A stretch of 64,000 nt of DNA from Methanofollis sp. W23 (GCF_017875325.1 NZ_JAGGMN010000001.1:2562140-2626139), one strand, 5' to 3'; positions 47,859-55,925 are shown, counted from the stretch's first letter. Notes: a model not told the origin generated them from the letters alone. Program-made: numbers and translations.

Positions 47859-47980
47859 GGTTTTGTAGAAACCCTTGCGTATCCTGGTGTGAGCGTGATG
47901 TATCCGCTTTCTCCCCTGCTCCCGCCGGGGGCGGCCCGCCCCCCGGCGAAGAGAACGATCAAGAGGATTTCTACAAAGCC
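47859..47980. mobile_element. MITE-like element, 122-bp best-preserved copy
   Basis: The ends GGTTTTGTAGAAACCCTT and AAGAGGATTTCTACAAAGCC are inverted repeats. The centre is a strong hairpin, CGCCGGGGGCGG paired with CCGCCCCCCGGCG. It is flanked by a perfect 8-bp direct repeat GAAAAATT (47851-47858 and 47981-47988). This is the clearest evidence that the family transposes. Confidence 0.88.
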
Positions 47981-52210: not shown

Positions 52211-52220
52211 CTTATATAGC
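52211..52220 (+). promoter_or_regulatory. TATA box of the pilin-like operon
   Basis: CTTATATAGC lies about 30 bp before the ATG at 52246, so the operon mRNA probably starts within a few bases of the first codon. Confidence 0.55.
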
Positions 52221-52245: not shown

Positions 52246-52785
52246 ATGAAACTCGCGCACCTCGCCCCCCTCCTTGGCCTCTGCATCCTCGTCCTTTCCT
52301 GGACCTGCGGCTGCACCTCGGCGCCAGACGGCGGGGGCGGGATCCAGGACATTACTACCGAGCCCACCGTGGAGCGGATCGGACTCGAAGAGGCACTTCG
52401 AGATCTTGAAGTCCTCGACGGTGAGGGACTCGAGGATCTGACCGGGATGGAGATCGTCACGGTGAGCGGGTCTGGTGTGGACTCAACCGGGAACGCGACC
52501 ACATGGACGCTTGGGGTGCGGCAGGCCGAGAACACCTCGCTCATGGTCCATTCCCAGAGTGGATGGTCGCGGTATGTCTGGCATGGTCCGCTCCCTGATG
52601 GACGGGTGGAGATGGAGGCAACCGTCATGCCCGCGGCCCTGTACCAGGGGCATGCCGACGAGATCAAGGGCCTCGGCGAGGTGACCGACCTCACGCTCAT
52701 CGACGGGGTCTACACGATCAGGTCTGAGGAAGACCAGACCAGGTCTCTCACCTTTGATGCGCAGGGCACGGAGGCGGCTGCATGA
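52246..52785 (+). CDS. Lipoprotein, first gene of the pilin-like operon
   Basis: The 179-residue protein starts MKLAHLAPLLGLCILVLSWT with a lipobox-like cysteine in TCGCTSAP, so it is probably a lipid-anchored extracytoplasmic protein. The mature part has no family I recognise; it is acidic and beta-rich in appearance (ATTWTLGVRQAENTSLMVHS). The stop overlaps the next start as ATGA, which ties it to the five following genes. It may act as a pilotin-like or surface subunit for them, which is inference from position only. Confidence 0.72.
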   Translation: MKLAHLAPLLGLCILVLSWTCGCTSAPDGGGGIQDITTEPTVERIGLEEALRDLEVLDGEGLEDLTGMEIVTVSGSGVDSTGNATTWTLGVRQAENTSLMVHSQSGWSRYVWHGPLPDGRVEMEATVMPAALYQGHADEIKGLGEVTDLTLIDGVYTIRSEEDQTRSLTFDAQGTEAAA

Positions 52786-53813
52786 GCCTGCGAGACGACG
52801 ACTCGGCCCTCCTCTCCATCGACTTTCTCGCGGGGTTCACGGTCTTTCTCCTCGCCTTCATCGTGGCGGCCTCGATGGTCCCTGGCATGCTTGCCTCGCT
52901 CCAGAGTTCGACCGTCGACCACGACGCCGTCGCCTACCGGACCGGGGTGATCCTGGCCGAGGATCCAGGGTGGTGGTTCGACGAGGTGACGATGACCGGG
53001 CACACCCACTGGGAAGGTGAGCGGACCGCACTCGACTCCATCAAGCGGATGGGACTTGCGATCTCAAAGGACACTCCAGGCATCCTCTCGATGGGGAAGG
53101 TGGACCGGTTCTTCAACCAGACCGAGTACAATGCCAACCCGGAGTTTTATTCCAGCAATCTCTTCTTCTCTGACTACCCGTACGCCTTCAACATCTCGCT
53201 GAAGGAGGTGGAGAGTGGCGACACCTATACCATCGGGTCGCCTGTCCCGAAGGACACCACCGACTATGGGTCGATCAGGCGGATGGTGATGCTGAAGGAG
53301 GTGGGGCCGGTGGTCCTGAACTCTTCAACCCTGAATAGTTCAGGTATTACCGGCGCCAAGACCTTCGCGATCAGGCTGGACTTCTCTGAGATCATGAATC
53401 AATCCCTGGCCTACCGGGTCGACCCCTATGAGGACAGGATCGAGGTGAGACTTGAAGATCTCGATCATTATTCTGGCAGCGAAGATGTCATGTTAGAGGA
53501 TTTAGATCTCTACCGGGGACCAAGCAAGATCCCCACCAACCGGCTCAAGGACACACGGTACTCCATCTTGAAAGTCGGCGATGAGATAAAAAATCCAGAT
53601 ACAAAGCCGTCTATTATAGCCAATAACATCTCCCTCATCCTGGAGCCAGGCTTCTTCACCTATGACATCGTCAAGCCGAGCCAGACTGTGGACATAAAGT
53701 TCACCTTCAACAAAACTGCCGACGCTAGTTGGACATATCTCAACGGCACCTATGATTACGCGTCCACCCCCTCCCCCCTCAAACCCGCCGTCCTGGAGGT
53801 GGCCATATGGTAG
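52782..53813 (+). CDS. Pilin-like membrane-anchored protein A (343 aa)
   Basis: The short charged N-terminus MSLRDDDSALLSIDFLAG is followed by a single hydrophobic helix (FTVFLLAFIVAASMVPGML), the usual plan of archaeal type IV pilin-like proteins. A large extracellular part rich in Asn/Ser/Thr has many N-glycosylation sequons such as NQTE, NISL, NSST, NQSL and NKTA. I see no catalytic motif. It starts inside the upstream stop (ATGA) and overlaps the next gene by 7 bp. It is probably the largest subunit of a surface filament or complex. Related haloarchaeal gene sets exist as uncharacterised DUF families. Confidence 0.72.
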   Translation: MSLRDDDSALLSIDFLAGFTVFLLAFIVAASMVPGMLASLQSSTVDHDAVAYRTGVILAEDPGWWFDEVTMTGHTHWEGERTALDSIKRMGLAISKDTPGILSMGKVDRFFNQTEYNANPEFYSSNLFFSDYPYAFNISLKEVESGDTYTIGSPVPKDTTDYGSIRRMVMLKEVGPVVLNSSTLNSSGITGAKTFAIRLDFSEIMNQSLAYRVDPYEDRIEVRLEDLDHYSGSEDVMLEDLDLYRGPSKIPTNRLKDTRYSILKVGDEIKNPDTKPSIIANNISLILEPGFFTYDIVKPSQTVDIKFTFNKTADASWTYLNGTYDYASTPSPLKPAVLEVAIW

Positions 53814-54313
53814 ACGACTCGGCCCAACTCTACACCATCGAGGGATTTGCCGCCGCATTCATCATCCTGGCGACTGCCTATCTCATCTCAGGGACGACGA
53901 GCATCTACACTCCGGGCGATTCGCATATCACCGACATGCAGCTTGAGCAGATCGGCAACGACGTCCTGGCGGTGATGGACACGCCGACGATGGAGGACGG
54001 CGAGAGCGAACTTGTGGGATATCTCAAAGATTGGAACACTAATGATTTTAACACCACTTTCCTGAATCGTCTGAACAGTCGAACATCAGGAAAAGACACC
54101 CTCCAGTTCGCTGCCTCGATCTCGTACCGTGACGTCGACAATGTTGTACAGAACACACCGTTCATCTCATCGCAAACACGGACCGGCTACGAGCAGGCGG
54201 TGCGGGTGACGCGGCTGGTGACGGTGCCAGAAGATAATCCCAGGCCGGAGGGGTGTCCACTCCAAAATCGTGAGCAGGTCGTCCTCCTGGAGGTGTTGAT
54301 ATGGAGAAGTTAA
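53807..54313 (+). CDS. Pilin-like membrane-anchored protein B (168 aa)
   Basis: The N-terminus MVDDSAQLYTIEGFAAAFII resembles the pilin-like plan 'charged, then QxxTxEGF, then helix' of a haloarchaeal family (DUF7288-like). The extracellular part of about 130 residues is of unknown fold, with RDVDNVVQNTPFISSQTRTG near the middle. It overlaps its neighbours by 7 and 13 bp. It probably assembles with the other small subunits. Confidence 0.68.
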   Translation: MVDDSAQLYTIEGFAAAFIILATAYLISGTTSIYTPGDSHITDMQLEQIGNDVLAVMDTPTMEDGESELVGYLKDWNTNDFNTTFLNRLNSRTSGKDTLQFAASISYRDVDNVVQNTPFISSQTRTGYEQAVRVTRLVTVPEDNPRPEGCPLQNREQVVLLEVLIWRS

Positions 54314-54663
54314 ACGACGAGGCACAATGGATCGTGCTGATGGGTTTCATGGTGGCGGCGGCCTTCTTCTTCCTGGCCCTTGTCATCAACCAGTCCACCC
54401 TGGTCGGGCAGACCACCGCCGAAGGGGTGCTCGAGTTCCCGAAAGAGGAGATCAGGGACGTGAAGAGCGAGGTGGCCGCGATCGTCGCCGCCGACAACGC
54501 CGACGAAGAACTCTGGGAAGACATCGAGGCGCTCTATATTGCACGCAAGAACGCCGTCGTGGATATTAGCGAATCTGTGAACATTGGTGATACCACATTC
54601 ACCGAGGTCAAGATCCACTTCAACAACGGGGTGACCGAGTATGATGAGACTGCACACTACTGA
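54301..54663 (+). CDS. Pilin-like membrane-anchored protein C (120 aa)
   Basis: The N-terminus MEKLNDEAQWIVLMGFMVAA runs into one hydrophobic helix (FFFLALVINQSTLVG), like the DUF7261-type haloarchaeal small pilins. A compact acidic domain with EEIRDVKSEVAAIVAAD follows, probably a helix. It overlaps the next gene by 23 bp, an unusually long overlap in another frame. Confidence 0.68.
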   Translation: MEKLNDEAQWIVLMGFMVAAAFFFLALVINQSTLVGQTTAEGVLEFPKEEIRDVKSEVAAIVAADNADEELWEDIEALYIARKNAVVDISESVNIGDTTFTEVKIHFNNGVTEYDETAHY

Positions 54664-55087
54664 CGAGGAAGGGGTCTCCAACCTGGTGGAGTACATGATC
54701 ATCTCGGGGATCCTGGTGGTCCTCCTCATCGTCATGACCTTTGCGGTGAACGCGATCTTCATGGAAGGCCCTTCTGACCGCCTCGCCTACCACTCCTTCA
54801 CCGATATCGGCAACGGGATCTCGACGCGGATCGTCGATGTCTACGTGCTCGCCCCTGACAATGGCTCGATCGTCACCGCCTTCGACATCCCAGACGACGT
54901 CGCCGGGCAGGACTACCAGGTCAGCCTCGATGTGGGACACACTGCCGACCAGCAGGTCATGGTCTCGCGGGACAATGTCATGAGCGAGATCTCCATCGCC
55001 GGGATAGGGGCGACGATGGGGGTGGCCGGGGACACCACCGGGAGCGGGGTCAACAGGATCACCTACAATTCTGAGGGGTTTGAATGA
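54641..55087 (+). CDS. Pilin-like membrane-anchored protein D (148 aa)
   Basis: The N-terminus MMRLHTTDEEGVSNLVEYMI contains a Glu five residues after a Gly, as in type IV pilin signal peptides cleaved by PibD-like peptidases. The following helix is IISGILVVLLIVMTFAVNAIF. The beta-rich extracellular domain (DYQVSLDVGHTADQQVMVSR) is about 110 residues. Either of two adjacent ATGs (54641, 54644) may be used. Its stop overlaps the next start as ATGA. Confidence 0.7.
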   Translation: MMRLHTTDEEGVSNLVEYMIISGILVVLLIVMTFAVNAIFMEGPSDRLAYHSFTDIGNGISTRIVDVYVLAPDNGSIVTAFDIPDDVAGQDYQVSLDVGHTADQQVMVSRDNVMSEISIAGIGATMGVAGDTTGSGVNRITYNSEGFE

Positions 55088-55902
55088 TGAGGTCAGGTGA
55101 AATCAAGAACGAAGACGGGGTCTCAGAGGCGATTGGGTTCATCATCATCTTCGGACTGGTGATGACCGGGATCGCCCTGATCACCCTGTACGGCTACCCG
55201 ATGCTCCTGCAGCAGCAGAGCAACGCCGACGTGCGCAACATGGAACAGACTGCAGTGGTACTCCAGAACGACATCAAGAGTCTCTGCTACAAGAACGTCC
55301 CCTACAAGGAGACCTCCCTCCAGGTGGGCGGCGGGGTGCTCGCTGTGGAGAACCGCACCGAGACCGGGGAGCGGTTCAATATCAGTATATTCAGGAGTGG
55401 TGAAACCATCAATGAATCAGCCACAGATCTCATCCATAGAAAAGAATACTCGCCCTTCAGCCCTGGCGCCTTCGTCTACTCCGCCGACTCTCAGGATGCC
55501 ACCATCGCCATTGAGAACGGGGCGGTGATCAGGGCGCAGGCAGGTGGGTCCTCGATGCTTGCCGAACCGCGGTGGTACATCGATGAACAGGAGAACAAGA
55601 AGACCTTTGTCATCAACCTCGTCGCCCTGAACACAAGCGGCCCTATGGCCAGGAGCGGGATGGGGAACGTGCGAATGAAACTTGAATCCTCGGCGCCGCC
55701 GCTGATCCTTGACCTGCCCGACGGAGAGACTGTGAAGGTCACATATCCCACAGATAAGACAGAAGGGTTGAGCTTCTCAAAGGCCTGGGAGAACTATCTC
55801 ACCGGCACACTGGGAATGGCAAAAGGTGGGAACTCTTACACCCTCGAAAATGTCAACAAACTCATCGTCAAAAAATATGAGATCCAGGTGCTCGGTATCT
55901 GA
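55084..55902 (+). CDS. Pilin-like membrane-anchored protein E (272 aa)
   Basis: The N-terminus NEDGVSEAIGFIIIFGLVMT is a class III/pilin-type signal ('G-V-S-E-x-I-G') followed by one helix; it resembles the DUF7289 family of haloarchaea. Residues about 60-270 form an extracellular beta-rich domain. As in true pilins, the conserved Glu lies at about +5 from a possible cleavage site. It is the last gene of the operon and has a T7 run 15 bp after the stop. Confidence 0.74.
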   Translation: MMRSGEIKNEDGVSEAIGFIIIFGLVMTGIALITLYGYPMLLQQQSNADVRNMEQTAVVLQNDIKSLCYKNVPYKETSLQVGGGVLAVENRTETGERFNISIFRSGETINESATDLIHRKEYSPFSPGAFVYSADSQDATIAIENGAVIRAQAGGSSMLAEPRWYIDEQENKKTFVINLVALNTSGPMARSGMGNVRMKLESSAPPLILDLPDGETVKVTYPTDKTEGLSFSKAWENYLTGTLGMAKGGNSYTLENVNKLIVKKYEIQVLGI

Positions 55903-55925
55903 GCACCAGGAAGAGATCTTTTTTT
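55903..55925 (+). terminator. Possible T-run terminator between convergent genes
   Basis: A GATCTTTTTTTAC run lies 15 bp after the stop of protein E and abuts the end of the convergent aIF1A gene. No strong hairpin precedes it; archaeal termination at T runs does not need one. Confidence 0.35.

Follow-up and report, generated by a model that had tools for sequence, protein, structure and literature searches.

Positions 52,246 to 55,902 of the window, which is the whole 64,000-nucleotide (nt) stretch of Methanofollis sp. W23 DNA that was analyzed (GCF_017875325.1, NZ_JAGGMN010000001.1:2562140-2626139), contain six open reading frames (ORFs) encoding a lipoprotein and five pilin-like proteins (Table 1). 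Recomputation of the ORF coordinates gave overlaps of 4, 7, 13, 23, and 4 nt, exactly the values for which the initial annotation had claimed an operon. By sequence reading, a single TATA-like promoter element precedes the whole six-gene unit, which is flanked by a divergent FmdE-like gene on the 5' side and by a convergent eIF-1A gene on the 3' side. Several 18-mers (e.g., GTTCTCTTCGCCGGGGGG; window positions 47939, 41855, and 50735), possibly a dispersed repeat, recur at several genome sites outside the operon.

Table 1. Positions and characteristics of the predicted features of the operon, counted from the first nucleotide of the window
Feature	Position	Strand	Basis or characteristics
TATA-like promoter element TTATATAG	52212..52219	+	Sequence; about 30 nt 5' of the first ATG; predicted
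Gene 1, lipoprotein, 179 aa	52246..52785	+	Cys23 after a hydrophobic signal; PepSY-like mature domain (from structure model)
Gene 2, pilin-like, 343 aa	52782..53813	+	DUF7287 in the N-terminal part, PF23958, E 2.6e-9; Asp +5
Gene 3, pilin-like, 168 aa	53807..54313	+	DUF7288, PF23959, E 7.8e-14; Glu +6
Gene 4, pilin-like, 120 aa, candidate cap	54301..54663	+	DUF7261-like, PF23922, E 0.0014 (subthreshold); +1 to +8 without acidic residue
Gene 5, pilin-like, 148 aa	54641..55087	+	DUF7266, PF23928, E 5.1e-7; start DEEG/VSNLVEY
Gene 6, pilin-like, 272 aa	55084..55902	+	DUF7289, PF23960, E 4.4e-23; start NEDG/VSEAIGF
T-run (T7), possible terminator	55919..55925	+	Sequence; just 3' of the last stop codon

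Profile searches placed genes 2, 3, 5, and 6 above the Pfam cutoffs in DUF7287, DUF7288, DUF7266, and DUF7289, respectively, as had been guessed from the sequence. The further guess of DUF7261 for gene 4 found a match below the cutoff here and a clear one in the ortholog at locus L085 (E value of 7.5e-12), and gene 4 was assigned to this family because of its operon position and the L085 match. No NCBIfam family was found for any of the six genes, a literature search by DUF names returned no paper, a sequence search of genes 1, 2, 3, and 6 against solved structures yielded nothing convincing, and a structure model of the gene 2 product (pLDDT, 76) had no significant match in Foldseek. DUF7288 was found in 36 of 41 relatives and, in a phylum-wide sample of 148 genomes, in 97; Haloferax volcanii, used as a control genome, was positive. 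All named relatives of gene 3 belong to the order Methanomicrobiales, the nearest three being from Methanofollis. Genes 2 to 6 were adjacent and in the same order at all 20 order-level loci, which indicates that the operon is more than a chance arrangement. The proteins were thus neither scattered over unrelated families nor encoded by genes that part company elsewhere, the two outcomes named beforehand as speaking against the grouping. Gene 1 adjoined the set at 17 of the 20 loci, lay about 4 kb away at two, and was not found at one, an incomplete stretch. None of the 20 relatives departed from 7 nt at the gene 2/3 overlap or from 13 nt at the gene 3/4 overlap, and the other overlaps varied, which points to constrained translational coupling at both joints, although part of this constancy may be a mere consequence of conserved end residues. 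Some genomes (loci L090, L091, and L093) carry two tandem copies of all five pilin genes, with no ATPase found in the fetched 20 kb.

Alignments of the five families, each with 21 order-level rows and up to 39 distant rows, revealed Gly or Ala at position -1 in 59 of 60, 60 of 60, 51 of 51, 59 of 59, and 59 of 59 rows for genes 2 to 6, respectively (288 of 289 in total), followed by a hydrophobic helix in every family. The residue at -2 is often Lys or Arg in distant relatives and often Asp or Glu within the order. Because the -1 residue is conserved before a hydrophobic helix, all five proteins are considered prepilin-like, with predicted cleavage sites of the class III prepilin type that is characteristic of type IV pili; the initial annotation had recognized such starts in two genes, which was right for those two and too low as a count. 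An early acidic residue is present as Asp at +5 of gene 2 and Glu at +6 of gene 3 (60 of 60 rows each), and within the order as Glu at +3 of gene 6 (21 of 21 rows) and Glu at +6 of gene 5 (18 of 21 rows), the last two being mixed outside the order. Gene 4 alone among the five consistently lacks one (51 of 51 rows). On sequence grounds, genes 2 to 6 are established as encoding five prepilin-type proteins that form one tightly overlapping unit with the lipoprotein gene.

Outside the order, the set was present in whole or in part at 39 of 40 loci, and at 14 of these 39 a PilB-type ATPase and TadC were encoded in the same fetched stretch of approximately 20 kb. The gene order of L085 by Pfam is T2SSE, T2SSF, DUF7287, DUF7288, DUF7261, DUF7266, and DUF7289. 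The location of the set beside PilB and TadC elsewhere, once in the identical order, identifies it as the pilin module of an archaeal type IV pilus of known type. With such motor-linked sets, the case for a pilus is far stronger than one built only on signal sequences. Pilus modules of this kind were described computationally in 2016 (PMC4858521), so that the earlier description of an uncharacterized system with an unknown role was overstated. The kind of module is already known; here its arrangement is split, and a motor and a tip-complex hypothesis are put forward for it. The Euryarchaeal Clade 2 pilus, whose type example is the PilB4 locus of Haloferax volcanii (Makarova et al. 2016, PMC4858521), likewise combines several distinct pilins with a PilB-type ATPase and TadC, and the likeness is read from L085, a presumably haloarchaeal locus of family f23, where the same five DUF families follow PilB and TadC in the same order, rather than from the PilB4 (HVO_1160) locus. 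Unlike the PilB4 type, the present system has its pilins about 1 Mb from the motor, two genes in place of one for TadC, and an operon that opens with a lipoprotein gene.

T2SSE matches in the genome were located at 721, 880, 1561, 1572, and 2002 kb of contig C1, with T2SSF (TadC) matches beside four of them. The operon, at approximately 2614 to 2618 kb of C1, is far from all of these, which bears out the earlier remark that no assembly ATPase lies nearby. The 721-kb match belongs to the archaellum locus and the 880-kb match to the PilA locus; the 1572-kb ATPase resembles the PIN-domain family rather than a pilus motor. Two ATPase/TadC modules have no pilins near them, the 59-type at 1.56 Mb and the 57-type at 2.00 Mb (C1:2000418-2003683). 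The 59-type module (C1, approximately 1559 to 1564 kb) encodes a PilB-like ATPase of 822 aa together with a pair of TadC-type membrane proteins (a split TadC), and 5' of the ATPase gene are two Roadblock/LC7 genes, a weakly DUF4388-like gene, a MinD gene (TIGR01969), and one unknown gene. Relatives share several of these neighboring genes, and in several of them, as here, the peptidase gene is close by. The only prepilin peptidase detected by Pfam (Peptidase_A24/Arc_PepC_II) lies at 1570 kb of C1, about 7 kb from the 59-type motor. Among the components by which archaeal type IV pili are recognized, the peptidase is therefore present, and the ATPase and TadC-type platform are encoded in trans here and linked to the set in other orders. 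The arrangement of the motor genes beside Roadblock/LC7, MinD, and peptidase genes (C1:1553000-1572000) suggests polar placement or regulation. The PilA/PilB3-type adhesion pilus, which has its own locus at approximately 876 to 888 kb of C1, also combines a PilB/TadC motor with class III prepilins and includes a DUF7289-like gene, but it differs in having its own Pilin_N pilins, and genes resembling DUF7287, DUF7288, or DUF7261 were not detected at that locus. The 13 Pilin_N matches in the genome are all away from the operon.

The distribution of the set and the two modules was surveyed in 129 genomes of the order (at least 90% complete), with the set called by a gene 2 search and the ATPases called present at E value cutoffs of 1e-165 (59-type) and 1e-149 (57-type); very divergent motor copies could go unseen because of these cutoffs, and fragmented assemblies could hide genes. 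The 59-type ATPase was present in all 96 set-positive genomes, and the set was absent from all 17 genomes without it (Fisher test, P = 1.6e-12, with the kinship of genomes ignored). These 17 genomes belong to four genera, 12 of them to one genus, and thus perhaps represent four independent events. A more sensitive gene 3 profile recovered only one of the 33 set-negative genomes (G194), in which the 59-type ATPase is present. Fifteen genomes keep the 59-type motor with no set detected, which indicates that the motor has other clients or that the set was lost. The 57-type module had been the first candidate for the partner motor because no pilins lie beside it, and the survey did not support it: it showed no association with the set (P = 0.24), 26 set-positive genomes lacked it, and 14 genomes had it with both the 59-type module and the set absent. 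Since the set and the 59-type module consistently co-occur, the latter is nominated as the distant motor, and dependence of the set on it is strongly supported. The suggestion that the proteins borrow a machine encoded elsewhere is thereby strengthened, and that of a static surface complex is disfavored, because within the order the set was never seen without this one module.

Quick maximum-likelihood trees grouped the set-linked ATPase and TadC sequences with those of the 59-type module (SH-aLRT of 92 and 91, respectively), with the exception of the long branch L098; without L098, the ATPase grouping was recovered with a support of only 61. A grouping of the linked ATPases with the 57-type was rejected by an approximately unbiased (AU) test (P = 0.0025); the clades were tested after the first tree had been inspected. 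Subclade 4F was also weighed as a home for the 59-type ATPase and then abandoned because of N-terminal cysteine content. The subclade 4F systems of methanogens likewise often have motor and pilins apart and a long ATPase N terminus, but their ATPases have a cysteine-rich N-terminal domain, described as frequent and not universal (PMC4858521), whereas the N-terminal part of the 59-type ATPase has 0 to 2 cysteines in all copies examined except an extra copy at L142, which has 4.

We propose that the operon is probably the pilin module of a PilB/TadC-type euryarchaeal type IV pilus and that, in the Methanomicrobiales, module and motor have come apart. The peptidase would trim the five proteins after Gly or Ala, and the motor would draw the trimmed pilins out of the membrane into a filament, the pilus likely having a role in adhesion or contact. 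The five pilins might then form a conserved tip or priming complex, with the gene 4 product perhaps as its cap, and a PilA-like major pilin, with its gene at another site, might build the shaft. In bacteria, type 4 filaments are initiated by a tip complex, whose conserved minor pilins are capped by a subunit without Glu5 (PMC10191384). The bacterial PilHIJK/GspHIJK priming complex also contains several conserved minor pilins, one of them without the early acid, a likeness by analogy, and the archaeal set would match such a complex in part, being conserved and tightly coupled and having one subunit without the acid. The PilA-type pilins of the genome, which start with VSPVVG, lack an early acid as well, so that the cap argument rests on the bacterial analogy. 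A tip complex of the five pilins is therefore offered tentatively, at somewhat less than an even chance.

Probable adhesin modules occur on single members of the set in other lineages. Gene 5 orthologs of family f9 (L098, L100, L101, L102, L112, and L118 to L121) are DUF7266-type pilins of 790 to 960 aa, with a VWA match in at least seven of the nine examined and PKD matches in some, and, judging by these domains, the large protein is a probable adhesin pilin; a VWA domain is likewise present in one gene 4 ortholog. In Streptococcus sanguinis, pilins of bimodular build are reported to function in adhesion (PMC8179133). With the same guarded confidence as the tip complex itself, the DUF7287-7288-7261-7266-7289 set could correspond in archaea to the minor-pilin priming complex of bacteria. 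In this archaeal version, five translationally coupled minor pilins would form the pilus tip, among them a DUF7261 cap without the acid; single members would carry lineage-specific VWA, PKD, or Ig-like adhesin modules, and a PepSY-fold lipoprotein would have been added in the Methanomicrobiales. No archaeal tip complex was found described in the literature searched. Five families of unknown function would become a defined pilus module with a named distant motor locus, and the set is a concrete candidate for the start of archaeal pilus assembly, a step well studied in bacteria.

The five proteins could instead be the filament itself, with one of them (e.g., the gene 6 or gene 5 product) as the major pilin and the others as structural minor subunits along the shaft, as the 2016 census proposed for such extra pilins, to which it gave filament rather than tip roles (PMC4858521). 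A match of a DUF7289 ortholog to Pilin_N at the edge of the cutoff agrees with this, but almost every genome of the order has a single copy of DUF7288, Pilin_N pilins are available elsewhere in the genome, the tight overlaps suit even, coupled output, and the large VWA domains on genes 5 and 4 in other lineages suit a tip better than a shaft; we consider a filament of these five proteins rather unlikely.

The choice of motor and the nature of the structure could also differ. Service by the 57-type module, or by any motor without preference, would accord with the lack of pilins near that module and with the finding that haloarchaeal PilB3-C3 can substitute for PilB1-C1 (PMC6491452); it is very improbable in view of the genomes that have the set without the 57-type or the 57-type without the set, and of the AU test, and occasional sharing of the 57-type motor may nevertheless occur. 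The adhesive pilus is predicted from genes and the lipoprotein could anchor a complex, so a static complex held in the membrane, or else a short substrate-moving pseudopilus, is conceivable, if improbable. The co-occurrence with one motor and the conserved peptidase-type starts speak against a motor-independent static complex, and the 59-type motor may drive a short pseudopilus.

The lipoprotein encoded by gene 1 had no Pfam or NCBIfam match and, among the loci searched, was found only in the order, where its lipid-anchor Cys is conserved in 19 of 20 rows. Its AlphaFold2 (AF2) model (pLDDT, 89.5; core, >90) matched 4exr, a Clostridioides difficile lipoprotein, with a Z score of 10.1 (VIA) over 121 residues, and more weakly YpeB and a DUF2874 protein, which we take to be of the PepSY type. 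The modeled mature domain is a PepSY-like fold. The shared fold gives no function, and any part in regulation or anchoring is conjecture; as part of the proposed detached pilin module, the protein might be an order-specific, membrane-anchored accessory.
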